Source of the DNA: Hondaea fermentalgiana
Lineage: Eukaryota; Sar; Bigyra; Thraustochytrida; Thraustochytriidae
Direction: 5' to 3'
DNA length: 54,335 nucleotides
Assembly (NCBI GenBank): GCA_014084085.1
Contig: NPFB01000020.1
Span: 261,968-316,302 of the forward strand
The notes under the pieces were generated by a model. That model searched no databases and was not told the origin of the DNA. It saw nothing but the letters and a program-made list of their open reading frames with translations. The position numbers were made by a program, and so were the translations under genes. Each line of letters opens with the position of its first letter. The first letter of the stretch is position 1. Of this stretch, positions 9,664-54,335 are shown piece after piece.

Positions 9664-12600
9664 TTAGTGGTGGGGTTCTAAAGTTTGCAGGCTATGCCAT
9701 TTCTGCGCGCAGGATTTGTCATTTCCGGATACAACATTGTGAAGTGGGACACAGCAGGTGCTGCAGAATGTCTGGGTCCTCTTTCCCGAGTCTCTGCAAA
9801 ACGCGCAAGGCTGCTGCTTGGGACGGCCGTTCCTTGACTTTCCAATGAATTCTATGCGATGACTAAAATTGCGATTGAGACGGATCGCCCTAAGCGTGGG
9901 CGTGTCAAAGTATATGCATCGCTTATGTGCGTATTTTGACGGGCATTGTTCTGCAATGCGCCTCGCATCTTCCTCACTTAACGTAGGAGAAAGGGTTGCT
10001 TCTGAGAAGGACGTTGGTTGTTGCACATCTGAGCAGGACGTTGGTTGTTGCACATTAGAACCGTGTGACGAAGTTGCTCCCGAGGCGTTTCGTGGGCTGC
10101 GATGAACTGTGTTCGGTCCTCGAGAGAGGGCTTCAGACAGAGCAAAAGCAAAGGATCTGAGAGTTCGAACACCATTGCACGCCTTCCTGAATGCCGCAAT
10201 CGATGTAAACGGGAACTCAAAGTCTCCATTTTCGTTGGTGCAAGCCCAAAGAATCCTGTAAAAGGAGAACGAATTGGCAACAAGTTGAAGGATGCCTCTT
10301 GTGCATAGCTTTTGTTCGAATTTGAGCTTGAATACGCCTGTATGAGTGATTGCAGCAACATGGTGGCTGTGGCCATCAAGACCCTGCTTGCATGAATTGT
10401 ATGCAACCTGTGCCCTGGACTTGAAGATCCGGATGGGTGGTAAGACACCTTTTTCGTGCACGTGACGACGGACTGCTCGCCACAATCTTAGATGCGACGA
10501 AAGAATGACCCTGTCACTCTCCAGGACAAATACATCAGCAGGGGGCTCCGGGGGTTTAGCGTCGATCTGCAGCGTATCGTACGCCCAAGTGAATAGATCA
10601 CGATAAGCAAGAAGCGAAGTCATGTAAGTTGATCGGGCCTCAGACGGGACGCAAACGAGGCAAACGTAGAGAAGTTCTTTCACCGTCCCTTCTGTGTAAA
10701 GAACGAAGTCAACGTTGAGGACCATAGCCTGGTGGATGACCTGACCTCGACATGATGCAGGGACTGCCTTCCACCAAACAGAATCCCCGACCGTTGAAGA
10801 AAAATATCGACCATGTGTTTCCCGCACATTCCGCGCCCGAGAAATGGCATCCTTGCTGCATCTGGTTTTGAATTCGACGCTGGCGATGATGTTCTCTTGC
10901 AGATCCATACTGCTTGGGGTTGTATTCGGTCGCCGTACTTTGGCGACTGCGTCCGCTGAAACTGCAAGGAAAGGGTAGTCTACACGTGCCAAAAGACCTA
11001 CCTCGTACAGCTCTTTGCACCAGTCTTGATTTTGCATCTCATTGAACAAGTTTCGCTCATTCAAAGCGCCAGTCTCCATGTCTTTCGTCACTACCCCGCG
11101 AGTGAAGAACCACGAGCCCATGAGGTCCTCGACCGTTCTCTCGATATCTGAGGTGCTTGCACGTGTGATTCGACTCGGCGCTCCTACAACAACAACATCC
11201 CCCAGCTCTTGCGTGTTTTCATCCTCACTATCGGTGTCTTCGCCAATGCTGTTCCCGTCAGAGTTGATGTCGTCCTCACAATCGTTGTCAGGTGGCTCGT
11301 CGAGCTTCGCATCTTTGGGCGCAGTTGATTTTTCACCATCGTCGTCATCCTCTTCGTCGTTGTCTTCAGTGCTGCTGTTGTTATTGTTGTTGCAAGCTTC
11401 GTTCTCACCGGACCCCCCCACGACGTTCTCTACGAGTAGCGCTCGGGCCCGAGGATTCCGTCGAGCAATCGCGCCGCAAGTTGTTCCAGTGATAGTGAAA
11501 GTGCGCAAGATGAACCAACAGGCAGTACGTTGAGAACACGTGAGCGGAAGAACGCCGCGTTCCCTCAGGTCTTTCTCTACTTTCACACGTTTCAGGCTTG
11601 GCCTGTTCGATGGAAAGAAAAGGACAGATGCCGAATGGTTCAAACTTTTTGGAATCTTCTGCTTTTCCATGCAAATGTGACTGGCTAATTTTGCCGGAAA
11701 AGAAGTGTTGAACTCGACGAACCGGATTACTCGAGAGACGCTGTCCACAACTTTGCCCTGATAGTCCCGGAAAGCGATGGCATTTAGCGTTTTGCGTTGA
11801 CCCTCAACATCAACTTGGGCTGTTGCTGTGAAAATTTCGCGACCAAGACGTGCGTTGTCATCAATGATGATCGAGTTCTCAAAATTCAAGCCAGCTCGGG
11901 CGGCTCGCTGGGCAACGGACTCTACTGTGGCCACAAAATTAGAGGACTGGCCAGTCACCCTCTTGTTACGTTCGCGCCGTTTCGTCTTTCTCAGCTGTGT
12001 GTCCAGAGACATGAACGGGTCTGAGCTTGAATTCGAAGTCATAATGAATGAAGCGCTTTTCGCCATGACGTCCTTCCACAGCTCGAGCTTGCTGTAACCA
12101 CGATCAGCAGTGATAGAGCATTGACGAAGTGCGCCAGGTTCGTTGAATGGCTCGTCACATTCATTGAGAAGAGCTCGGACAGCAGAAGTTTGGTTGTACT
12201 CACGAGCACAATGGCGCACAGCGTACATGATGTGAAAGAGAGCGTCGGCTGCACAATCGTTCTTAACCCCGCCCTTTCCAGCTTTGCGCAGACTCTGTTC
12301 TCGTTTCTGAACACCGGCCGACCGGGATCCCACGAGTTCATCGTCAATCACGATGTGTTGGTGCGCAGACGTAGCAATCATGCGCGAGGTACGAAACAAG
12401 TGGGATTCGAACGCGCGCATATTATCCACAATGTCAGTGGTGTTGGAGAAAGTATGCGATGGGTGCCCGACGCTCAACTCGGGGTCGACAGCACTGAGGT
12501 GACGTAGAATGTCCCTAAAGCGGCTGGTTTCCAACTTGGGCTTTCTGATATACTGCGTGGGCGATCGTTCTGAACCATCGAGGCTGATGTGAATGTTGAC

Positions 12601-13609
12601 TGTCGGTTTGTTATAAATTTTCATGCTCTCTTCCAAAGTGATGCCATGAAGTTGCGTGGTGAGAAACGCTCCCAGAAAGATGAGCATTTCTGTGGTGTCA
12701 ATCGGCTCACAATCCGATTGGCAAAGGCGAGTCTTTGTCCAATCCACCAGCTGGTTTATTGTGTCTTTTGCAAGCACAAAGAAAACTGGAAAGATCCAGT
12801 CGAGCGACGATGAGGGCTTCCGTTGAGTAAACCCAGGTACACTCTCGAGCTGCGCTTTCAGAGTTGCAACAATGTCTTCGCAGTGCATTTTCATGGAATT
12901 CAAAAACATCTCATCTCGTGCGTCCTCCAAGAATTCAAGATGGTAAACGTCCGGAACAGGGTTCGCAGTCCACTTAAGCTTGGAGGGCAATGTTGCCCCT
13001 CGTACATGGCCTCTTTGACTGTTGGAGCGACCTTGGTTGTATGGACAGTCGAGATGGTTCGTTCGGGAGTGCGTTGTGCTTCCACATTTGCATGACTTTG
13101 GTCGAGACGCCGGGTCTGGGGACGTTGAAGGGTTTTGTCGATGTGAAGGTGGTTGGTGGTTAGGTTGCTCGACAGCCTCCCCTTGACTTTGCGTTGACTG
13201 AGACGAGCGTTGACGCGACGAGGAAGACGAGCGCTGACGCTTGCTCCTATGCACTTCCTCGCTGTCCTCGGAAGAAGCGTCTGAGCTCTTCGAGAAAGTG
13301 CTCCGCCTTGGACGAGTCGTGCCTTGAGCAGCTCCATGACCACTGCCCCGTCCTCCGCCACCGCGGCCGCCGTGGTGGTAAGACATGTGATGAACCGGAA
13401 GGGGGGGCTCCCGCGCACCGCCCTCGCGCCACTTCTTCTGCGCCCACGAACCCAGAAGTTTGGGCGAATGAAAGCGCGCGTTTCAAGGTTTGCGGTGCCA
13501 CGGTTAGCATCGCCTCGCACGCATTGCACGATCTCCCACTGTATTGAAAGTAGTAGGCCTAGTAGGCCTATCGATAAACTTTGTAGTTTTAAACCCAAGG
13601 TTTGGGTTA
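9385..13609. mobile_element. piggyBac-like DNA transposon, ends tentative
   Basis: The single large transposase gene on - strongly indicates a class II element here. The ends are uncertain. The only symmetric words that I see outside the gene are TAACCC at 9385-9390 and GGGTTA at 13604-13609. They are short, and a perfect TTAA target duplication, the usual piggyBac footprint, is not visible. The boundaries are therefore placeholders. Confidence 0.3.
9664..13386 (-). CDS. piggyBac-type transposase with internal PD-(D/E)XK (YqaJ-like) nuclease domain
   Basis: Intact 1240-residue protein. Order of parts: a disordered Gly/Arg/Ser-rich tail (1-95); a zinc-knuckle-like cluster CKCGSTTHSRTNHLDC (about 99-114); a DDE_Tnp_1_7-like catalytic region with candidate aspartates in IDDELVGSR (D349), TADRGYSKLELW (D428) and FRDYQGKVVDSVS (D541); and an acidic Asn/Asp/Glu linker (665-730). 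A nuclease-like region follows (about 750-915) with ADAVA (D812), VEFKT (E839, K841) and GQVIHQAM (Q882 onward), matching the D...ExK...Q pattern of YqaJ/PD-(D/E)XK enzymes. The C-terminus is a piggyBac-type zinc ribbon (CAFCRDSGKRTQTFCSTCC). The family cuts and pastes DNA at TTAA. The extra nuclease between catalytic core and zinc ribbon is unusual. No stop or frameshift breaks the gene, so it may be recently active or domesticated. The catalytic assignments are by eye. Confidence 0.85.
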   Translation of the reverse strand: MSYHHGGRGGGGRGSGHGAAQGTTRPRRSTFSKSSDASSEDSEEVHRSKRQRSSSSSRQRSSQSTQSQGEAVEQPNHQPPSHRQNPSTSPDPASRPKSCKCGSTTHSRTNHLDCPYNQGRSNSQRGHVRGATLPSKLKWTANPVPDVYHLEFLEDARDEMFLNSMKMHCEDIVATLKAQLESVPGFTQRKPSSSLDWIFPVFFVLAKDTINQLVDWTKTRLCQSDCEPIDTTEMLIFLGAFLTTQLHGITLEESMKIYNKPTVNIHISLDGSERSPTQYIRKPKLETSRFRDILRHLSAVDPELSVGHPSHTFSNTTDIVDNMRAFESHLFRTSRMIATSAHQHIVIDDELVGSRSAGVQKREQSLRKAGKGGVKNDCAADALFHIMYAVRHCAREYNQTSAVRALLNECDEPFNEPGALRQCSITADRGYSKLELWKDVMAKSASFIMTSNSSSDPFMSLDTQLRKTKRRERNKRVTGQSSNFVATVESVAQRAARAGLNFENSIIIDDNARLGREIFTATAQVDVEGQRKTLNAIAFRDYQGKVVDSVSRVIRFVEFNTSFPAKLASHICMEKQKIPKSLNHSASVLFFPSNRPSLKRVKVEKDLRERGVLPLTCSQRTACWFILRTFTITGTTCGAIARRNPRARALLVENVVGGSGENEACNNNNNSSTEDNDEEDDDDGEKSTAPKDAKLDEPPDNDCEDDINSDGNSIGEDTDSEDENTQELGDVVVVGAPSRITRASTSDIERTVEDLMGSWFFTRGVVTKDMETGALNERNLFNEMQNQDWCKELYEVGLLARVDYPFLAVSADAVAKVRRPNTTPSSMDLQENIIASVEFKTRCSKDAISRARNVRETHGRYFSSTVGDSVWWKAVPASCRGQVIHQAMVLNVDFVLYTEGTVKELLYVCLVCVPSEARSTYMTSLLAYRDLFTWAYDTLQIDAKPPEPPADVFVLESDRVILSSHLRLWRAVRRHVHEKGVLPPIRIFKSRAQVAYNSCKQGLDGHSHHVAAITHTGVFKLKFEQKLCTRGILQLVANSFSFYRILWACTNENGDFEFPFTSIAAFRKACNGVRTLRSFAFALSEALSRGPNTVHRSPRNASGATSSHGSNVQQPTSCSDVQQPTSFSEATLSPTLSEEDARRIAEQCPSKYAHKRCIYFDTPTLRAIRLNRNFSHRIEFIGKSRNGRPKQQPCAFCRDSGKRTQTFCSTCCVPLHNVVSGNDKSCAQKWHSLQTLEPHH

Positions 13610-31976: not shown

Positions 31977-33731
31977 CTACTGAAGCAGGACGCGCACAAT
32001 TTTCTTGGCGTTGAGTTTGTTGATGTTGGTGTACTTTTGACCCGTGCCAACGAAAATAATCGGCTGACCGGTGGCATGCACCAGGGAGATGGCCCCTCCT
32101 ACCTTGTCGCCAATGGTGTCAAACTTTGTCATGATCATGCCGTCGATCGTGCGAGGCACGGTGGTTTCTGAAAAGTCCTTGAGCGCCTTGTCAAAGTGCA
32201 CGAGCTGATCAGTGGCATCGTTGCCGGCAAGGGCTTCGACAACCTGGACACAAAGGTCAGGCTTGGTCTTGGCCACAAGCTTGGTGAGCGAGCGCATGAG
32301 CGGCTCGTTGTTCTGCATGCGACCAGCTGTGTCAATGAGAACAACGTCCATGCCGGTGTCCTTCGCCTGCTTGATACCATTGACAGCCACGGAAGCGGCG
32401 TCCTTGTTATAGCCAGCCTCAAAGACAGGAACGCCAAGATTCTTGGAGTGCACCTTGAGCTGCTCAATGGCACCAGATCGAAAGGTGTCACAGGCACAGA
32501 GCATGACCTTGAGACCGTTGTTTTTCAGGTAATAGCAGACCTTGCTGAGACTCGTGGACTTGCCCACGCCGTTGACTCCAATAAAGACAATCGTGTACGG
32601 CCGGCCCTCGGCCTTGGCGGCGCGCGCCTCGCGGAGAACATCGATGCTACGCTTGGGTGCCAACAGACGCTGCAGCGCCTTTTCGCACGACTCGCGAACA
32701 GCTGTCGACACGCCGCGCGTCATGCTTCCTAGCTTTTGGCCCTCCAAGTCCTGCATGACCGCTTCACAAATCTCGCGAGCTGCCACTGCGGACACGTTCT
32801 GCGCCTGGAGCTGCTTTTGCATGGTCTCGATAGGGAGCGAAAGGTCTTCTCGTGTGAGCGGCTTTTGTCCCGTCAGTCGCTGGAAAAAGTTACCAACGGC
32901 GGAGGACCCAAAGTTCCAGCCGCCGTCATCATCGTCGTCGTCGTTACCGTCCTCTTCGGCAGCCTCCTTGTCGAGATCTGCCATTTCGCCCTCTTCGTCG
33001 GGCAAGTAAACTTTTGCCTTGCGGAGGTACGCGGCCTCAACTTCGTCTGCGCTTGCGCCATTGGATCCAGTCACGTCGAGAGCGATCCTCTCTTCCTCGG
33101 TCATGTCTTCTTTCTCGTTCCAGGCGCGTTTTGCCTTTGTGGCATTGCCACTACCTTTTCCCCCAGACTTTGGCGAGCGCGATCCGCTCTTGCGCCCTTG
33201 ATACCCGCGGGGGCCCCCACGACGCGTGGAGCGGAATTGAGCAAATTCGTCGTCGTCGGCCTCATCTCCCGTGTCGTTATCGTCGGTATTGTCGTTTTCG
33301 GGGGTCTGACCCGAAGTTTTGACAGCAGCAGGTTTCTTTGCTCTGTTCTGCCTGTTTGACCTGCGGCTGTTCTCCTCGGCCTCGAAGAGAAGGGTGTCGA
33401 ACTTGGTACCAAAGTCGAGCGGGCCCGTGGCGTCAGCAATGTCGTCCTTGAAGGCGCGTGGAAAGGCTGTGGCGACGTTTTCGAGCAGGTCGTCGACGTA
33501 AGTGAGCGCGAGGGAGCTCTGATAGACGGCCACACAGACGATGCCATACTTGTTGACGAGCTTCCATTTGATCGCATACGAGCCGACCTTAAAGACAGTG
33601 TCAGTCGTTGACCTGTTCTCTAGCAGCACCGTGCGGATCAGGGCGTCCACCGGGTCGCCCTTGAGCGTTGCGAGCTCGTACTTGAAGAGCACGAGCCCGC
33701 TTTTGGAGAAGATCATGAAAACGTCCAGCAT
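31977..33731 (-). CDS. SRPRA: Signal recognition particle receptor subunit alpha
   Basis: 584 residues with start at 33729-33731 (MLDVFMIFSKSGLVLF), which is the conserved start of the SRX longin-like domain that binds SRP receptor beta at the ER membrane (LALTYVDDLLENVA near residue 85). A charged linker of about 180 residues follows, then the NG GTPase domain. It has G1 GVNGVGKST, the DTFRSGAIEQL motif, G3 DTAGRMQNN, G4 TKFD, and the closing FVGTGQKYTNINKLNAKKIV. The protein docks ribosome-SRP complexes at the ER translocon. The longer frame to 34136 extends into the divergent promoter and is not conserved. It is convergent with CPSF160 (110 bp apart). Confidence 0.96.
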   Translation of the reverse strand: MLDVFMIFSKSGLVLFKYELATLKGDPVDALIRTVLLENRSTTDTVFKVGSYAIKWKLVNKYGIVCVAVYQSSLALTYVDDLLENVATAFPRAFKDDIADATGPLDFGTKFDTLLFEAEENSRRSNRQNRAKKPAAVKTSGQTPENDNTDDNDTGDEADDDEFAQFRSTRRGGPRGYQGRKSGSRSPKSGGKGSGNATKAKRAWNEKEDMTEEERIALDVTGSNGASADEVEAAYLRKAKVYLPDEEGEMADLDKEAAEEDGNDDDDDDGGWNFGSSAVGNFFQRLTGQKPLTREDLSLPIETMQKQLQAQNVSAVAAREICEAVMQDLEGQKLGSMTRGVSTAVRESCEKALQRLLAPKRSIDVLREARAAKAEGRPYTIVFIGVNGVGKSTSLSKVCYYLKNNGLKVMLCACDTFRSGAIEQLKVHSKNLGVPVFEAGYNKDAASVAVNGIKQAKDTGMDVVLIDTAGRMQNNEPLMRSLTKLVAKTKPDLCVQVVEALAGNDATDQLVHFDKALKDFSETTVPRTIDGMIMTKFDTIGDKVGGAISLVHATGQPIIFVGTGQKYTNINKLNAKKIVRVLLQ

Positions 33732-34171
33732 ATTCCCGAGCCTTTGCTGCGCCGGGCGGGCCTTCCTTCCCCGCCGACCCTCAGGACCCTTTCCGCGTCC
33801 GCGCGCCGACCACGCGTCGCCCTTCTTCTTCTTCTTCTTCTTCGCCTTCTCCTTCGCCTTCTTCTTTCTTCTTTTGCGCGCGCAGAAAGTCCACGTGGCT
33901 GCGTCCAAGGCAAGTGGACTCCGCAAGTGCAGAATACGGGGCTTTCGAAAGTTCGCTAAACTCTGCGCAAGTCGACTTTTCCGCTTGCGTCCTGTTGCGG
34001 CCAGCGGGACAGTCAATTTGACGCGCTTGCAAGTGAGGCAATGAAACGAATGACTGTGAATAAAGAAAGAAACAGCAACATAACGCGGCGAGAAACGAGG
34101 TGAGGTGAGATGAGATGATAAACGATGCGACGGCAAGACCCATAACGCGAATCGACGCGACGCGAGCGAGC
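33732..34171. promoter_or_regulatory. Divergent promoter, SRPRA / CENP-M
   Basis: 440 bp between head-to-head genes. A (CTTCTT)n tract lies at about 33823-33870 near the SRPRA start. An in-frame upstream ATG for CENP-M occurs at 34115. No core element can be identified. Confidence 0.5.
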
Positions 34172-35287
34172 ATGACGACGATGGCAGAGGCGACGACGAC
34201 GCCGGCAGCTTCAGCGCTGTCGGCTGTGCGGACGCCTGAGGAAAGGCTTGGCGTCATGGTACGTTGCGAAGGGAGAGAGGAGAAGACGGAGGGGTGGGTG
34301 GTGGGGGCGATGAGCTTGCAAGCTGCTCGACGGTTAGGCGGCAGTCGAAAGGGAAGGAACGAAACTAACCTCATCGCGAGCGCACGCGCATGTATGAAAA
34401 ACAAACCGAGAAAAGATCGTTGGCATTGACGGCATTGGCAAGAAAGAGCTTGGCGACGCCATTGTAGATGCCGCCAAGACACGTGATATCGAACTCGACG
34501 TGTAAGTGTGCCCACCAGAGACACGAGGATCAAGACAGATCTTGTCATACTCACTCTGGCAAACATCGTTGCGATGCGTACAGATTTACCTTTAGCTCAC
34601 TTCCTCTGCAGGAGCCCTTTGCGCGGCGTGTTGATCATGTAATTTTCATGATCGATATGGCGAGCAAACTGAGTCTGCACCGCGTAGCTGCCTCGGTCGG
34701 CCACTTGGACTGCAACTTTGCGCTTGGCAGGTCTACCCTCGTGGTCATCAATTGTAAGTGAAATCCTGTGGCTATGGGAAACATCCGAAAATGATTCAAT
34801 CGGAATAACTAACATCGGTGAGATACTACCTACGCGCCTGGCTCATGGTGCGTTCATCTTTATCATGTACGCCTGTACGCAGCAGAGACGCCCGCCAAAT
34901 TCAGCTTTGCGATTGGTAAGTATGCGAATTGGTTCGAGATAGGTGACACATATTTTCTCGTTACGCGAAGACAAGACAAGAGAAGATTGGGGAACGGACG
35001 CTGACTTTCTTGCAATGTCTTTTGATTCTGCTCTTGACCGCTCAGACGAGGCCCTAAATTTCGCAGACATTTACGGGACGGCCTTGGTGTACTGTACGCT
35101 GGAAGATAATGATGCTCTGGTACGTTTTTCTTTTTAAATTCGCCTGACAAAGCCAAAAGAGTACAATACGCTAACGTGTTTGGACGCTTGTGCGCAGAGC
35201 ACTGCCGGCGAAGCGCTCGTGCGTGCTGCCGAAGCAGCACGACGCCCACAAGGTGTGAGCCCGCTATTTTCTAGCTTGCTGAGTTGA
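34172..35287 (+). CDS. CENPM: Centromere protein M (CENP-M), six exons
   Basis: Spliced model: 34172-34258, 34416-34501, 34596-34753, 34883-34915, 34971-35119, 35198-35287, joining in frame to 200 residues plus stop. All five introns (157, 94, 129, 55 and 78 nt) begin GTAAGT or GTACGT and end AG. Human CENP-M is 180 residues and small-GTPase-like. Matching landmarks are an LGVMIVGIDG strand, SLPLQEPF, VDHVIFMIDMASKLSL (compare IDLIVFVVNLHSKYSL), HLDCNFALGRSTLVV, LVYCTLE (compare LLYCDLE) and the final GVSPLFSSLL. CENP-M joins CENP-H/I/K in the inner kinetochore. Unlike the animal pseudo-GTPase, a GIDGIGKK P-loop-like motif is kept. The in-frame ATG at 34115 would add 19 residues. The intron 2 acceptor TTTAG at 34595 is chosen because it alone keeps frame and restores SLPL. 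The last 17 bases overlap the end of the sulfotransferase gene on -. Confidence 0.85.
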
Positions 35288-36893
35288 CGGGTTCCTCATC
35301 ATTCTGGACTTTTTCTCGTTTTCGTGGTGGCGAGTCCTTTTCGTGCTTTGCTTTAATGCGCACAGGCGGCAGCTTTTCCAGCGCCGCCTGCCATCGTTTG
35401 CCAAATCCACGGCCAAAAGGATCATCGGCAGTAAGCGGACGGAGCGCGTAGCGCTGATTGAGAAAGAGGTAATGCTCGCAGCCCATGAACCCGGGGCGTT
35501 TGCGCGAGGTTGGTTTCAAAACGATGCAAGAGTTTGGGCGTCGGTCCTCCCCGCTCGGCCCGTGCGCTGCCTCAAAGAAGCTGTCCCAGTACCCAAATCG
35601 AACGAGTTCGGACTTTGCTACAGTAAAGACATACGCTTGCTGGTGTTTGTTGAAGAAGCGCAGGTTGCGAAGAGCATCCTCTGGCAGCGGCGCCCATGAT
35701 GGTGTCGCCTCTTCTTCGTTTTGATCTGGTCGATCGTCTTTCGTAGACCCTAGGCTGGCATCTGTGCTGGCTGCGACTTTGCCAGCTTCTGAGCTGTCAG
35801 ATTGCGCTTTGGGCTCTGTGTTTCTCTGCGAAAGGTCGCGTGGGGCATAGACGCCCAAGCTATCGCGAGATGTCGAGCAGGCGGCCTGTACAAGCGCGTG
35901 CAGCTCGTTGTCGTCGAGAGGGTTTTCCTGATACAGGAAGCGCGCGACTCGCAGCATGGCGTCCTCGCGATGATGAATGACATCTTCGTAGCGAATAAGG
36001 AGAAGCGGAACTTTTTTGTTCACTTGCTCATCGAGCCAATGGGCGTGAAACTGTTTCCAAATGGAGATTTCCTCCCTCACAAAGGCGTCCCAAATGTCGG
36101 CATATTTGATAAACTCGTCATCCTCAATCGTGTGCGTGTGTGTTTGTGTAAGCACCATGTTGAAGTAGGAAACGATAGCATCGAACGGATTGCGGACGAT
36201 GAGCACGGCCCGACTCGCGGACAGTGCGCAGCGTCCAAGACGTTCTGGAAAGTGCGTCTTGACAGCAAAGACAACGTCCTTGACAAAACCTTCTCCCATC
36301 ATTCCGGCCTGCACGAGTTGTTTATTGAGCGGTCGCAAAGGGTCACAGTCGCTGCCAGTGTAAATGTGTGTGAGGCGCTCGACAATGCTTCGGAGAAGAG
36401 AATTTCCGCTCCGTGGGTAGCTCGCAAGTGCGACGCGTCTGCTGAGGCTGGTTCTGGGATCTTTCTCAGCCAAGAAGCGGATGGGGTGGTCTCGTGGCGG
36501 AGCGAGCCCTTCCTCGACGATTTTGAGCTGCTCTTCGAGTGCGAGGGCTGTCTCTGCCTTGCGCTTCTCCCATCGCTCGCGCTGCGCCGCCTCGGAGTCT
36601 TCTGCTTCTGGCGTCTCCCCCGCATCTCCTTCTTTTCCCTGTCCACTTCGCCGCCGGTGCTCGCTGTCTCCACCTTCCGCATTGTGCGCCTCGTGGTCCT
36701 CGTGGTCCTCGTTCTGGTCCCCCTCCTCGTCCTCCTCGTCGCGCACGGCCTTTTCGAGGTCGCTCTCGATTTCCTGCTCGCGCACGAGCGCCTGCCGCAG
36801 GCTTTCCCGCGCAGCCTCGACAGCGCGTTCGGCCTCCGCGCGTTGCCTGCGCGCGGCGCCCAGCGCGCTGCGCAGCGCGGCCGCCTGCTCCAT
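35271..36893 (-). CDS. WSCD-type sulfotransferase-like protein
   Basis: 540 residues. The sulfotransferase core starts near residue 150 with ASYPRSGNSLLR, the 5'-phosphosulfate loop for PAPS. It is followed by THIYTGSDCD and GEGFVKDVVFAVKTHFPE, and then VLIVRNPFDAIVSYFN, the 3'-phosphate-binding segment. Later come WDAFVREEISIWKQFHAHWL and VPLLLIRYEDVI. This order and wording match the WSCD1/2 sulfotransferase group. The enzyme would move sulfate from PAPS to an acceptor, probably a glycan. Odd points: the N-terminus is an Ala/Arg/Glu coiled coil with an acidic His/Asp/Glu stretch, not a Golgi signal anchor. An acidic insert (about 355-400) and a Lys/Arg-rich C-terminus (RKREK) are also present. 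The start at 36893 is the only reasonable ATG, but an upstream anchor exon cannot be excluded. Confidence 0.88.
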   Translation of the reverse strand: MEQAAALRSALGAARRQRAEAERAVEAARESLRQALVREQEIESDLEKAVRDEEDEEGDQNEDHEDHEAHNAEGGDSEHRRRSGQGKEGDAGETPEAEDSEAAQRERWEKRKAETALALEEQLKIVEEGLAPPRDHPIRFLAEKDPRTSLSRRVALASYPRSGNSLLRSIVERLTHIYTGSDCDPLRPLNKQLVQAGMMGEGFVKDVVFAVKTHFPERLGRCALSASRAVLIVRNPFDAIVSYFNMVLTQTHTHTIEDDEFIKYADIWDAFVREEISIWKQFHAHWLDEQVNKKVPLLLIRYEDVIHHREDAMLRVARFLYQENPLDDNELHALVQAACSTSRDSLGVYAPRDLSQRNTEPKAQSDSSEAGKVAASTDASLGSTKDDRPDQNEEEATPSWAPLPEDALRNLRFFNKHQQAYVFTVAKSELVRFGYWDSFFEAAHGPSGEDRRPNSCIVLKPTSRKRPGFMGCEHYLFLNQRYALRPLTADDPFGRGFGKRWQAALEKLPPVRIKAKHEKDSPPRKREKVQNDEEPVNSAS

Positions 36894-47957: not shown

Positions 47958-50900
47958 TCAAAGCGCCACCCTATCATCATCGTCATCGTCGTCATCAACG
48001 TTGGCATCGCCGTCGTCCTTTCCCGCAACAATCGGCTTCTCTTCCTTGGTGGTAGCTTCTGATGCTGCGGCTACTGATTCAGACGTGCCTCCCGTGGCAC
48101 TCGACGCAGTTGGAACAGCATCACCCTCGGCATCTTGATCATCTGCTGCCTTTTTGGACGCTTCTTCGTCAGCTTTAGGAACATTGTGGCGGCTGTTGTA
48201 GTTGGCGCAAGCGCCCATGAGAGCTTTGACGAAGGCGCGAGAGTCTTGAGCGGCATGATATGTGCGAGCAACTGGCTCGTCTTCGCCCTTTGCGTAAAAG
48301 AGCGTAATGAAAGTGGGGTCATTGTTGGGAAAGCGCATGCGCACAACGTCCTTGAGCGATCGCACAGACTTGACGTATGCGTAGCCTGGGCGCATTGGAT
48401 GCGGGTCGAGAACGAGGAAGCGATCGGGCGTGACGACGAGCATCCGCTTAACCTCAAAGGTCTTGTCGAGTTTTTCATCCTTCTTTTCCTTGTAGACATC
48501 ATACGCGCGGTGCATGCGACCAAACTCCTGCACGGCAACAAGATCTCCCTTGGTCACCGAGGCAATGCGGTTCATGGCCATTTGGTCGTCCTCTTGCTGC
48601 TGCCTTTCGCGAGCCTCCGCCTGGGCTTGGGCTGCGCGCTCTGCCTCTTCAACAACAACCGCAATCGTCTGCTGGGCGCTGTTGTAGGCCTGATTCATGG
48701 AGGTTTTGAGCTTGGAGCCTAGCTTCTCCGTATCAAGCTTGAAGCGCGACGACCAACCCGAGGACCAAGACGCTCCAGAGCTCTTGTTGGCCTCTTTCGT
48801 CGGGGTAGCGTCCTGAGCAGCCTTGGCCTTTGCAGCAGCAAACTCGGCTGCCGTTTCCGACGACGATTCGTCGTGATCACGCTCGGCAGGATCCGCGGTT
48901 GCTTTTTCTTCAGTATTACCAGCACTCGTGTTGTTACGCTTCCACATGGACGAAAAGAGACGCGATCCGCTGCTTCCATGCCCATCTTTTGAGGATCCTT
49001 GCGCATCAGCCTGAGACACCCCTTCCTCGGCAGGGGCGCCCTCATCCTTCTTTGAAACGGCAGCATCCGACGCAACCGGCGATGCCTCCTGATCGGATGC
49101 GGGTTTCTTCCAGTAAGAAGAAAAGAGCTGCGAAGCCTTGCCAACAATTTGCTTGGTCTGCGCCGAGGCCGCTGCAGCTGCGGCTGCTGCTCCAGCCCCA
49201 CGTTCGGACCCGTTAAGCTCGGAAAAGGAAACTGCAGTGTCAGATCGTGGCTTGGCTTCGCCCGCATCGCTTCCCACAGAGGCGTCAGCGCCATCCGTGT
49301 TGATCGCACTAGCGCCCAGACGAGCAGATGCGGCACGCGCTCGTCGCTGTGAAACGAGCGAGGATGCCTTGTTGGCTAAGAACCTCGTGGCGACGCTCGG
49401 AGGAGAGTTCCGGTACCGTTCGTAGGCATCGTACTTTGTCAGCGAGCCCTTATCCGCGGGAACATTGATGAGAGCGTCCTCAAGGTGGTAGCCCAAGCGG
49501 CGTAGGGCGCGATAACACGCGAGAAAGCCACCATCCACCACACCAACGAGAGGGAAGCCAAGTTCGATAAAGTATACGGCACAGCGATCAACGCGGCGAC
49601 GATCAATCTCGCGCTTGTAGCGCGCGCGACGCGGGTTAAAGTCCGCCACGAGAGCATCTGTGCCAGACCCTAGAATGCAAATGTGCATGTCGCCTCGCAT
49701 CGGTGCAAAGGTCTCCTCGAGAGACTTGCGCTTTTCCTCGTCGCCAAGATCGGCGGGATCAAGGACAAAGGCCGTAGGGAAGCGGCCAGTGCGTTCAATG
49801 ACTTGCCTCGGTCTGCAGTCGACCACAAAAACTTTGCGCCCCCCTGCACCAGCTTCACCTGAAATAGCTGACTTGTTCCCGGAACCTGCCCCCGCCGCCG
49901 CCGACGAGGGTGTCGACACGTGGTGTTCTCGAAAGCATACTTGTCGCACTACATCATCACCTGCAACGGGGAGACAGAATGCGCTGAGCGGCATGACAAA
50001 GGGATCACCGGTGATGTGATCATCGTACTTGACTGCAAGTTCCTCGAGCAGGACCGGCTCGCGATGAGAGTAAATGCGAGAGATGCGCTGGGCATCGCGC
50101 TCTTTGCCTGGATTGTACTTGAGATAATAAGCTTCGATGCGCTCCGTGAGCGCCGCGCAAGTGGTACTTTGCGTGCTTGCGGCGTTGTCTCCATCCTCGA
50201 CGGAAATTTCGCCCTCGAGCTCTTTGGGCACAAGCGTGGCGAAAATGACGAAAAAGGGACGTTCTTGTAGCGCAATAAGACCATCCGCCTCGGAAGGACT
50301 CAGTCCAAAGACCAGGTGACCATTAAGCGTCATGACGAGATCTCCAACGTGAACAAGTCCGCAGCGTTCAGCCATGCTTCCAGGTGTCAGACTGGCCACC
50401 TCGAGGCCGTGCTTGCCGCGGCGCAGCCCGAGACCTGCGGGTTCACTTTCAGGCCCGTTGAATTCAACAAGTCTCCGCTTCAAAAAGTACTTTTCAAAGT
50501 CGATTGGGACCTTGCCGGCGTTGAGCGAGGAGGTCACGGCGGTGCGCAGGTCTTGCGCCGTCTTTTTGAAGGCCGATGATAGCCACGCCGAGGTCCTCGC
50601 AGACGAGGAAGGTTGCGCAGACTCGCCTTCCTCATTATTGCCAGTCCCGCCAGAAGGCTTTTCACCGGCGTTGTCAGGGTCTGCTGCGCCCTCACTACCC
50701 GCACCAGCTAGTTCGGCATTCGCTCGAGCTGCAAACGCGGCGAGAAGCTTGGCATCGTGGTTCTTGGCTTGCATGCGACGAAAGTCGAACATTCCAAGGT
50801 CTTCTTGAGATGGGACGGCGAGAAGTAATTCGTCTTCGGCGACCCACTGGGAGACACGGCGCGGGGTGAGGGATGCAAGAAGCCTGACGAGCGCGCCAAG

Positions 50901-53075
50901 GCGTGGGCCGGCGCGAGGTGCATCTTCATTGGAAAGCAGATCCGCGGCATTGGTGATCATTTGCGTGAGTTTTGACGCGTTCTGCTCTGCGAGCAGAGAC
51001 TCGCGCTGCATCATGAGAAGTCCCACGGCGGTGAAGAAACTGAGCGTCTGCATTCCCATGCCAAGGATGACCAGCGTGTCCCAGAGCGAAATTCTCGCCA
51101 GAGGGTTTAAAAGAGGACCATCGCGTGGAGAAAGGATGCCGAAGAGAGCGGCTGAAGGCCAGGGCTCGCTACCCTTTGCTTCGGCTGCCTTGATGAGTCG
51201 ATCCATGCCTTTGAGAAGGAAGTCCTCATCGGCGTCGCTGCCGGTCGAGTCCTTTTTGGTCAGATCCACGTTGTCCGCAGAACCCGTGACGGTGGTCGTG
51301 GTGGGCTCATTGTTTGCAACAGCAGTATTGCTCTCCTTGTCGTCATCGCTGCCGTCCTCTGGTGTTGGCTTGGGCGAGCTTTGCGATGACGTGTTGGTGC
51401 TCTCGGCCTTGAAGAGTGTCCAGTCTGGGCAATAGGTGTGGAGATGAGCTCCGAGCTGAGGATCGTGATAGAGCAAGATGCGGGAGACGAGGGCGTGACG
51501 GCGAAGCTCGTTAAGAGGTGTGGAGCGACGGGACCAGGCAGCGCCCCCGACGCCGACATCGTCAGGTTGAGTACCTTCATAGAGTCCAAGGGAGCGCCAA
51601 TCGCCGCGCCGGCCTCCATAGCGCAGTGAAATGGCCTCGAGAGCTCGGGAAGCGGCTTCGACGTCATTATCGAGAACAAAGTAGACGGAGGCCGCCAATT
51701 CGCAAAGAAGAGGGTGATAGATGCGAGAGGCCTGGCGCAACGTAAAACGACAGACGAGCGCGGCAAGCTCGTCCAAAGAGCTGTCGTCGCTCTTGGGGGC
51801 CGCGTCTGCTTGGGCCTGTGAGGACTGATGAAGAGCGGCCCACACGAGCTCGCAGTCACGGCGAATCGATTTGCGCGTCGAAGACAGAACCTCGGAGAGA
51901 CGTTCCTCTCTCACGGAGGCCCATTCCGGGACTTCTTGTCTGGCGCCAAGGACAGCGAGCCAGACGTCGCGACGTCTCTTGTTGGGCAGCACAAATCCCG
52001 CAACGTCTTTGACGCGGAGAGCCGACTGCAGCGCCGAAGCGTCGGTTTGACCAATTTCAAAAAGGGTTTCAAGGCGCGTGTCAATCTTACCTTCCGCATC
52101 GGAGGCGGCACGCGAGGCAGCATCTGTGTCTGACTCCTCCTTGCGAAGCGCGGCGAGCGCGGGGGGATCAGAATTTGCGCCAGACAAAGTTTGCTTGGGA
52201 ATGCAAAGGACAGGTGCGGCTGGTAAAGTGTTTGCGTGCAACGCATCTTGACTTACGTCGGCAGATTGGCCCTGCGCGTCGGCTTTGGCAGCTGCGGCAG
52301 CCAGAGCAGGTTGGCTGGTCGTGACGTCACCGTCCTGGTTGACGTAAAATGCGATTTCGTCCTCCTCGTCATCTTCATCATCATCCTCCTCGTTGTCTGT
52401 CTGATTCCCATGTGACGCATGAACATCATCGCCAACGTTGAACTCGTCAATTGTCTTGAGATCACCACCGAGTTGGGACATGGGTCCGCCGGTTGATCCA
52501 GAGGATGCGGAAGCGGGGGATCCGACGTTGTTGCCGGACGCCGGTTTCTCCTCGAGCCAGCTGAGAAAGTCGTCCTTGTCCTTGCTGTTGCCGCGCTCGG
52601 AGGTAGGAGGTGACTGGAGGGATCCCATATCGAGGTCTTGCAGAAAGGTGTCGACATCGTCAAAGCTGTTGCCTGATCCGACGTGCTTGAGACCCTCATC
52701 CTCGGTGCCGCCCGAAGAACCGGTAAACCTTGAAGCGCCTACCGGGGTTGCCGAGGACGAGGATGTGGACGAGGATGAGGAAGGGCGCAAACGAGGAGAT
52801 GCAGTGTTTGAACCATCGCCCGAAGCGTGTTTGGGCGAGAGCGAGGAGAGGCCAATGTCGTTGAAGAGATTGTCGAGCTCGGAATCGCCGCGTTCGCGCG
52901 ACTGGCTCGCATCCTTTGCGAGCGTATCGCCGATGCCCGCAAAGATTTCGTCCATGTCCGACATGGAGCTCACCTTGCGGCCAACGGAGGCCTCGTCCGC
53001 TGCGCCCTGACCCTTGCGCGCGGCGGTGCCCTCGTCCTTGAAGAGGTCCTCCATGAAATCGTCATCGTCCTCCAT
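47958..53075 (-). CDS. TBC1D23: TBC1D23-like protein with an added PDZ domain
   Basis: 1705 residues, start at MEDDDDFMEDLF (53073-53075). Order: a disordered acidic N-terminus (1-330) with repeated acidic-hydrophobic motifs; a TBC-like domain (about 335-735, split by an acidic insert) with KSIRRDCELVW, ILLYHDPQLGAHLH and LWDTLVILGMGMQTLSF; a PDZ domain (about 860-950) with GLGLRRGKHGLEVASLTPGSMAERCGL and GDLVMTLNGHLVFG; a helical KYNPGKE...EELAVKYDD segment; a rhodanese domain (about 1075-1200) with FVVDCRPRQVIERTGRFPTAF; and a PH-like C-terminal domain (about 1500-1640). TBC, rhodanese with VDCRP and the end domain identify TBC1D23. In animals it bridges golgin-97/245 and the WASH complex to capture endosome-derived vesicles at the trans-Golgi. 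The Arg finger motif is absent (DCELVW), as in the animal pseudo-TBC. The PDZ is not in animal TBC1D23. A Gln-rich helix precedes the C-terminal domain. Confidence 0.88.
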   Translation of the reverse strand: MEDDDDFMEDLFKDEGTAARKGQGAADEASVGRKVSSMSDMDEIFAGIGDTLAKDASQSRERGDSELDNLFNDIGLSSLSPKHASGDGSNTASPRLRPSSSSSTSSSSATPVGASRFTGSSGGTEDEGLKHVGSGNSFDDVDTFLQDLDMGSLQSPPTSERGNSKDKDDFLSWLEEKPASGNNVGSPASASSGSTGGPMSQLGGDLKTIDEFNVGDDVHASHGNQTDNEEDDDEDDEEDEIAFYVNQDGDVTTSQPALAAAAAKADAQGQSADVSQDALHANTLPAAPVLCIPKQTLSGANSDPPALAALRKEESDTDAASRAASDAEGKIDTRLETLFEIGQTDASALQSALRVKDVAGFVLPNKRRRDVWLAVLGARQEVPEWASVREERLSEVLSSTRKSIRRDCELVWAALHQSSQAQADAAPKSDDSSLDELAALVCRFTLRQASRIYHPLLCELAASVYFVLDNDVEAASRALEAISLRYGGRRGDWRSLGLYEGTQPDDVGVGGAAWSRRSTPLNELRRHALVSRILLYHDPQLGAHLHTYCPDWTLFKAESTNTSSQSSPKPTPEDGSDDDKESNTAVANNEPTTTTVTGSADNVDLTKKDSTGSDADEDFLLKGMDRLIKAAEAKGSEPWPSAALFGILSPRDGPLLNPLARISLWDTLVILGMGMQTLSFFTAVGLLMMQRESLLAEQNASKLTQMITNAADLLSNEDAPRAGPRLGALVRLLASLTPRRVSQWVAEDELLLAVPSQEDLGMFDFRRMQAKNHDAKLLAAFAARANAELAGAGSEGAADPDNAGEKPSGGTGNNEEGESAQPSSSARTSAWLSSAFKKTAQDLRTAVTSSLNAGKVPIDFEKYFLKRRLVEFNGPESEPAGLGLRRGKHGLEVASLTPGSMAERCGLVHVGDLVMTLNGHLVFGLSPSEADGLIALQERPFFVIFATLVPKELEGEISVEDGDNAASTQSTTCAALTERIEAYYLKYNPGKERDAQRISRIYSHREPVLLEELAVKYDDHITGDPFVMPLSAFCLPVAGDDVVRQVCFREHHVSTPSSAAAGAGSGNKSAISGEAGAGGRKVFVVDCRPRQVIERTGRFPTAFVLDPADLGDEEKRKSLEETFAPMRGDMHICILGSGTDALVADFNPRRARYKREIDRRRVDRCAVYFIELGFPLVGVVDGGFLACYRALRRLGYHLEDALINVPADKGSLTKYDAYERYRNSPPSVATRFLANKASSLVSQRRARAASARLGASAINTDGADASVGSDAGEAKPRSDTAVSFSELNGSERGAGAAAAAAAASAQTKQIVGKASQLFSSYWKKPASDQEASPVASDAAVSKKDEGAPAEEGVSQADAQGSSKDGHGSSGSRLFSSMWKRNNTSAGNTEEKATADPAERDHDESSSETAAEFAAAKAKAAQDATPTKEANKSSGASWSSGWSSRFKLDTEKLGSKLKTSMNQAYNSAQQTIAVVVEEAERAAQAQAEARERQQQEDDQMAMNRIASVTKGDLVAVQEFGRMHRAYDVYKEKKDEKLDKTFEVKRMLVVTPDRFLVLDPHPMRPGYAYVKSVRSLKDVVRMRFPNNDPTFITLFYAKGEDEPVARTYHAAQDSRAFVKALMGACANYNSRHNVPKADEEASKKAADDQDAEGDAVPTASSATGGTSESVAAASEATTKEEKPIVAGKDDGDANVDDDDDDDDRVAL

Positions 53076-54335
53076 GACGTGGCGCGGCGCCCCGGCTCCA
53101 GCCGCGGCGCCCTTGCTCTCGCTCGGGGAACGGGAAAGAGAAGAAACGAGGAGACTCGGCCCGCAGCCGCGCGGCGGCAAGCGGCGGCGCCCGCGGCAAG
53201 CGGTCTGCGGCGGCGCGCGCGGCCCTCTCCGAGCCTGGCTCCCTCGCGCGAGGGCGTCGAGCTCGCAAGGTTTTTCAAATGCTGCTTGCCTGCTTTCTTT
53301 CCGCGTCTTCGCATGAACCCGAAGATAGAGCCCTCGCGCGCCTGGAACTTCTAGAGCTCCTGGCCGCGTCCCACCCGGAACGCTTGCGGAACTACCACGG
53401 ATCTCGCGCGGGTCCCCGATCGCCACTGCGACACGAGAGGCTCAGTGAGCGCGAGTGGAGCGCGAAGCTCGGCGCGGCGGATCGGCCTTCTGCGCGGCGT
53501 TCGAGAGAGCCGATCGCGTGAAGATTTGGTGCTAGCATGCCCCCTTGGTGAGACGTTTTGCGAATGGGGCAAGGGTGGGAAGGGAGGGGCAGGCTGCATC
53601 TCCTACGGTGGACTGTTGTGATGGTCCCAAGATCATCAAGGATAAGATCGAGAGAACTTGAGCTTGCCAAAGAAAGGAGTTTGCAGATGTCAATGGTATA
53701 GATGGAATTACGTTTTGCGAGGCGGTAGAACATGGACAGCCGCGCTACATTTGAGACAACAGGATATTTGTACCACTTCTTTTTGCACGGAGACATGACG
53801 AGTTTCGGGCTCCCTTGCGCGGACGCACGCCACCCTTGTGGTCGCGACGAGTAAGATTAGGGGAAAGTTGGCTTTAGTTCGTTTTGTTTTGTTTTGTTTT
53901 GTTTTCCAGCCTATGGCTTCCGCATAGAGATACGACAAAACGAAACCATTATCGTGGCGTCCATTCCCTTTTTTCAAAGGTTGAAGAACCAAAGGTGATT
54001 CAAGCCACTGCCATTAGCAGCGCAATCTTTCTGCATCGGCAAGACTCCCTCTCGTCGTCGATGATCTCCGTTTATCCCTGCTCGCCTCCATCAATCCCCT
54101 CCTCGTTATTATCGCCTTGGCCCTCGTCGAAGTACCTCTCCTCGCGCGCCTCTCCATCGAACAGCAGGAAGGAAAAGGGAATAAGAAAGCAAAAGAAAGT
54201 CAAAAAAAAGAAAGAAAAAAGCACGCAAGCAAGCAAGCAAAAGCAAGCAAGAAGGAAGGCCATAGTACCACGCATCTATCCCATCTTCATCTCTCGTCGC
54301 GGCCTCCTCTCGCCGCCGCTGCCACCACCCCGCTC
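53076..54335. other. Terminal stretch without a supportable gene
   Basis: The first 400 bp are GC-rich and should be the promoter of the TBC1D23-like gene. Further on there is a (TTTTG)n run at about 53881-53905, and an A/G-rich tract with (CAAG)n at about 54180-54255. Short frames around these repeats, including a hydrophobic one on - at 54072-54275, are repeat translations. A gene beyond the window edge may begin nearby. Confidence 0.5.
53881..53905. repeat. (TTTTG)n pentanucleotide run
   Basis: About five tandem copies of GTTTT on the + strand in the terminal gene-free stretch. Confidence 0.9.

Follow-up and report, generated by a model that had tools for sequence, protein, structure and literature searches.

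A CENP-M gene of Hondaea fermentalgiana with a partial P-loop, a possible vestige of GTPase ancestry

The 54,335-bp window analyzed here forms the end of a 316,302-bp contig from the marine thraustochytrid stramenopile Hondaea fermentalgiana and contains a gene for the centromere protein CENP-M. The six exons of this gene join to 540 nucleotides (nt), or 179 codons and a stop, and each of its five introns has GT..AG ends (Table 1). The encoded protein carries the motif GIDGIGKK, a partial phosphate-binding loop (P-loop). The original prediction, made from the sequence alone, had placed the six exons at exactly the coordinates that we recover, and its three CENP-M landmarks (including LVYCTLE and the C-terminal SPLFSSLL) are all present, with the motif lying entirely inside exon 2, as had been claimed.

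GenBank already carries the gene as "Centromere protein M [Hondaea fermentalgiana]" (P0001, the best protein match); the deposited protein is 150 amino acids (aa) long, omits exon 4, and runs into a wrong frame at its end. The predicted six-exon model improves on this entry, because two related sequences, P0002 (MMETSP) and P0003 (JGI), both carry a counterpart of exon 4 (SDTPARFSFAI) and P0002 also carries the C-terminus. That end of the model is backed by P0002 alone (GLSPMFSTLLF, with Met where Hondaea has L173), as P0003 diverges after LEDADSL.

The CENP-M identity of the protein is very well supported, as the original prediction of an orthologue had proposed. CENP-M (PF11111) is the sole Pfam family matched (80.9 bits against a cut-off of 25, expectation value [E] 8.9e-23), over model positions 17-166 of 174, and a PDB search at E<=1 yields just two sequences, both of them CENP-M from human structures (4.9e-11 and 6e-11). 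The structure, modelled on P0001 and thus lacking both exon 4 and the genuine C-terminus (mean predicted local distance difference test score, 64.1), is predicted to have a GTPase fold with CENP-M topology, closest to solved CENP-M. Human CENP-M (PDB 4p0t, 4wau, and 7qoo; PMC4080450) shares the family and the predicted fold with the Hondaea protein at an identity of about 31% and likewise lacks switch I and strand 2; it differs in having GTEDALLQ at the position of GIDGIGKK. Three leucines of the human protein have counterparts in Hondaea. In an alignment with the Aotus protein P0004 (180 aa), Hondaea L64 corresponds to human L52, at the Ras Gln61 site, where Basilico et al. 2014 call Leu invariant in CENP-M (PMC4080450). 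L105 and L173 correspond to human L94 and L163 (an alignment with human CENP-M also pairs 173 with 163), so that the leucines that bind CENP-I in human are conserved; their double mutation abolishes binding of CENP-H/I/K by human CENP-M (PMC4080450).

Intron positions point in the same direction. The mammalian junctions were inferred from isoform proteins. In 14 of the 16 listed mammalian rows, a different first exon ends right before L20 with Q, E, or S as its last residue, and this junction is therefore phase 0 (residues 19|20). Six mammalian CENP-M proteins have five extra residues (FSFFS or FLFSS) following residue 46; a final Ser in the insert, beside an AG acceptor, fits phase 2 at V46. 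Hondaea introns 1 (M29|I30, phase 0) and 2 (codon V58, phase 2) align with both, which means that two of the five introns match the inferred mammalian junctions in place and phase; the isoform junctions near residues 77, 96, and 134 do not coincide with introns 3-5 (at 114-115, 125-126, and 150-151). When five and five sites are drawn at random in 444 nt, two or more coincide exactly in about 0.1% of trials. Read at the protein level, the apparently common introns support vertical descent from an ancient CENP-M gene and confirm the predicted exon that carries the motif.

With respect to the setting of this gene, we searched the Hondaea genome with Pfam profiles (which give six-frame exon matches rather than curated genes), with 14 prokaryotic genomes as controls. 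Five of the eight other CENP families searched exceed their cut-offs (Table 1). In the controls, CENP-C_C matches occur in 8 of the 14 genomes, CENP-T_C matches in 3, and a CENP-O match in 1, all below cut-off, and the remaining families give none. These profile matches indicate that an inner kinetochore network is likely present in Hondaea. As for CENP-H, CENP-I, and CENP-K, to which the original prediction had pointed, a candidate CENP-H falls just short of its cut-off, and CENP-I and CENP-K have no Pfam match in the genome, which does not show their absence.

The predicted fold superposes GIDGIGKK on KRAS G10-S17, and in the model helix 1 begins at the lysine of GK, as in real P-loops, which upholds the earlier placement of the motif at the phosphate-loop site. 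For comparison, we assembled 20 Ras-family loci from the Hondaea genome (out of 30 loci returned and 74 matches) and built an ungapped P-loop profile from 18 loop segments. The Hondaea CENP-M segment, at the exact register, is the top-scoring position of the whole protein, with a score of -1.7 versus a homologue mean of -17.2 (best, -9.2). Shuffling residues 32-49 does as well as the Hondaea segment in 280 of 100,000 cases, and shuffling residues 27-49 in 209 of 100,000. None of the 85 CENP-M homologues with a readable strand 1 (among 120 listed others) has GK at +5/+6, in a set that is dominated by mammals and does not represent other animals or protists; P0002 and P0003, the related thraustochytrid-like sequences, start downstream of the N-terminus and the motif region. 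When residues 27-58 are shuffled, GxxxxGK appears at the exact site in 0.19% of cases and GxxGxGK in 0.016%, and codon shuffles of residues 30-57 give nearly the same values (0.19% and 0.015%). Two of Hondaea's own Ras/Rab GTPases (L009 and L010, GDSGVGKS) have GxxGxGK at the same predicted structural site, and the Ras/Rab proteins also resemble Hondaea CENP-M from strand 4 to the G5 region; in them, however, GK is followed by Ser/Thr, and they possess switch I, DxxG, NKxD, and SAK, all of which Hondaea CENP-M lacks. In single-sequence comparison with the Ras-family profile, the Hondaea protein reaches E 2.2e-4 over residues 26-159, versus 0.0046 to 0.24 for four mammals.

Taken with the family's history, these observations make it reasonably probable, in our view, that GIDGIGKK is a vestigial P-loop. 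CENP-M would have arisen from a Ras/Rab-like GTPase, and the motif, in its ancestral register within the loop, would have been inherited rather than evolved anew, being kept in Hondaea and lost on the mammalian line. The Hondaea protein would work as the human one does, as a non-switching subunit with a small-GTPase fold that holds CENP-I in the inner kinetochore, and its loop would no longer serve useful nucleotide binding. The "transitional state" of the original prediction thus survives in the sense of a vestige, matching the P-loops of the genome's Ras family above chance, and not otherwise.

The main alternative, which we hold possible but distinctly less likely, is chance: an ordinary non-binding CENP-M in which the loop between strand 1 and helix 1 drifted to GIDGIGKK, aided by a local repeat of the hexamer GGCATT, which is indeed repeated in the DNA there. 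Several observations weigh on its side and against a vestige. The first Gly is common to most mammals, leaving only G at +5 and K at +6 (and G at +3) to be explained, and given that Gly, GK at +5/+6 appears in 1.3% of residue shuffles; with the extra Gly, in contrast, the figure falls to 0.14%. The P-loop profile score, rarely as it is reached by shuffling, is negative, and the flanks are poor. GxxxxGK anywhere in the 32-residue stretch 27-58 is less rare, at 5.2% of shuffles. In 54 of 200 cases, shuffles of residues 27-58 match the overall Ras-profile score, which therefore stems from the later portion of the protein rather than from the loop, a limit that applies equally to the stronger Ras-family alignment of Hondaea than of all four mammals, which otherwise speaks against chance. 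Searched by itself, the N-terminus (70 or 39 residues) yields no GTPase family at E<=10, only a weak match to CENP-M, and the motif was singled out post hoc in a long window. On the other hand, the family descends from GTPases (PMC4080450), so inheritance of the loop requires no new event. Both this descent and the shuffles of the P-loop profile argue against chance.

A GTPase requires G1 to G5. Hondaea CENP-M departs from an active small GTPase of the Ras superfamily throughout: in G1, Lys stands in the Ser/Thr place of GxxxxGK[ST]; in G2, alignments with Hondaea's own GTPases show a gap where switch I and strand 2 would lie, and the model has no strand there; G3 is TFSS instead of DxxG (human L52 being the Gln61 position according to PMC4080450); G4 is NSET or SETP, depending on the aligner, instead of NKxD; and G5 is TLE instead of SAK. 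Human CENP-M, when tested, did not bind methylanthraniloyl (MANT) nucleotides (PMC4080450) and is listed among the pseudoGTPases of class i, which do not bind nucleotide (PMC5593906). The dynein light intermediate chain offers the best-documented parallel, from another complex, as a scaffold that also has a Ras-like fold and whose nucleotide motifs depend on lineage: the human form, with canonical motifs, binds guanine nucleotide, and the fungal form tested does not (PMC4359372). Because of the lost G motifs, the non-binding human protein, and this parallel, nucleotide binding by Hondaea CENP-M is unlikely. Of the original prediction, the Walker A fit short of its Ser/Thr therefore stands, and the suggestion of a nucleotide binder is not supported, given the Lys substitution, the deleted switch I, and the absence of DxxG, NKxD, and SAK.

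We accordingly regard as improbable a CENP-M that binds nucleotide or phosphate, as a binding but non-hydrolysing pseudoGTPase, perhaps with Lys39 at the usual Mg2+ site. The start of helix 1 at the GK lysine in the model would suit such a protein, as would the precedent of the dynein chain, in which some lineages keep the motifs and bind GDP (PMC4359372); against it stand the Lys in the Ser/Thr position, the missing switch I threonine, strand 2, DxxG, base-reading NKxD, and SAK, the negative human result with MANT nucleotides (PMC4080450), and the canonical G motifs retained by the binding, metazoan form of the dynein chain (PMC4359372). Very doubtful, too, is a phosphate or nucleotide loop still working for stability and not for switching, with Lys39 replacing Mg2+, which would make the protein a living link from a Rab-like GTPase to the inactive form of the kinetochore. 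That the gene model is wrong or the protein misassigned, placing the motif outside CENP-M, is highly improbable: the intron 1 acceptor (..CCGAGAAAAG) has no pyrimidine tract, which also counts against our reading, and the GenBank model disagrees in exons 4 and 6, but the Pfam match spans residues 27 to 174 and so starts ahead of the motif, the exon 1-exon 2 junction is identical in P0001, and the boundaries and phases of exon 2 are those of the matching mammalian exon, as inferred from isoforms.

A vestigial P-loop in Hondaea would bear on the history of the family. Basilico et al. 2014 found CENP-M identifiable only in metazoans, and its GTPase ancestry rested on the fold and on structure-based phylogeny (PMC4080450). 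The same work describes distant CENP-M family members, obtained by iterated hidden Markov model (HMM) search from sponge, Dictyostelium, fungal SAS1, and Aedes, that keep a canonical P-loop (PMC4080450). The idea is the same as in Hondaea, a CENP-M-like protein with the P-loop kept, but these members may be ordinary GTPases, because they come from an iterated HMM search and two of them are named GTP-binding or Ras-related protein (PMC4080450); the Hondaea protein, in contrast, lies above the Pfam CENP-M cut-off and has an incomplete loop. The constitutive centromere-associated network (CCAN) occurs in three of five supergroups and so was probably present in the last eukaryotic common ancestor (LECA), according to van Hooff et al. 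2017 (PMC5579357), in whose text CENP-M is not named, and the complete CCAN is suspected to date back to LECA (PMC9252888, citing Tromer et al.). We found no report of a thraustochytrid CENP-M or of the GIDGIGKK motif in the accessible part of the open-access PMC literature. Hondaea CENP-M is thus an expected member of its family with an unusual, informative loop, and no new mechanism. A clear stramenopile orthologue with two introns matching mammals and a partial P-loop would favor the view that CENP-M is ancient, that it came from a Ras/Rab-like GTPase, and that its loop decayed afterwards, and it provides a concrete protein for dating the loss of nucleotide binding.

Table 1. Exons, motif, and key residues of Hondaea CENP-M, centromere protein families matched in the genome, and neighboring frames
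Feature	Position	Strand	Score (bits)	Cut-off (bits)	Remarks
Exon 1	34172..34258	+			Residues 1-29, ends in strand 1; intron 1 phase 0
Exon 2	34416..34501	+			Residues 30-57 and two bases of codon 58; intron 2 phase 2
GIDGIGKK, partial P-loop	34422..34445	+			Residues 32-39, GxxGxGK without final Ser/Thr
Exon 3	34584..34753	+			Residues 58-114; holds SLPLQ, VDHVIFMIDMASKLSL, L64, L105
L64	34600-34602	+			Human L52
L105	34723-34725	+			Human L94
Exon 4	34883..34915	+			SETPAKFSFAI; missing in GenBank model P0001
Exon 5	35046..35119	+			To residue 150, includes LVYCTLE
Exon 6 and stop	35198..35287	+			GVSPLFSSLLS; includes L173
L173	35264-35266	+			Human L163
CENP-C_C			38.8	29	Passes
CENP-L			62.9	24.4	Passes
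CENP-N			32.4	25	Passes
CENP-O			52.6	23.9	Passes
CENP-T_C			78.7	28.1	Best of six matches; passes
Candidate CENP-H	L003:1378-1998 (G000:C233:147008-147493)		27.9	29.9	Just short; CENP-H is the sole match of the frame
SRP receptor alpha	31977-34136	-			SRP54 GTPase and SRP-alpha_N domains
Sulfotransferase-domain frame	35271-36893	-			Convergent with CENP-M
Long frame	9664-13386	-	26	23	Weak DDE transposase match
Open frame	47958-53426	-			1,822 codons

CENP-M lies head-to-head with a gene for the signal recognition particle (SRP) receptor alpha, in which an ATG at 33731 opens the matched N-terminal domain and would put the starts of the two genes about 440 bases apart. On the other side, the stop of the sulfotransferase-domain frame falls inside CENP-M exon 6, with the coding ends overlapping by 17 bases. 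Elsewhere in the window, the open frame of 1,822 codons has no Pfam match at 1e-5, and another shows a weak match to a DDE transposase.
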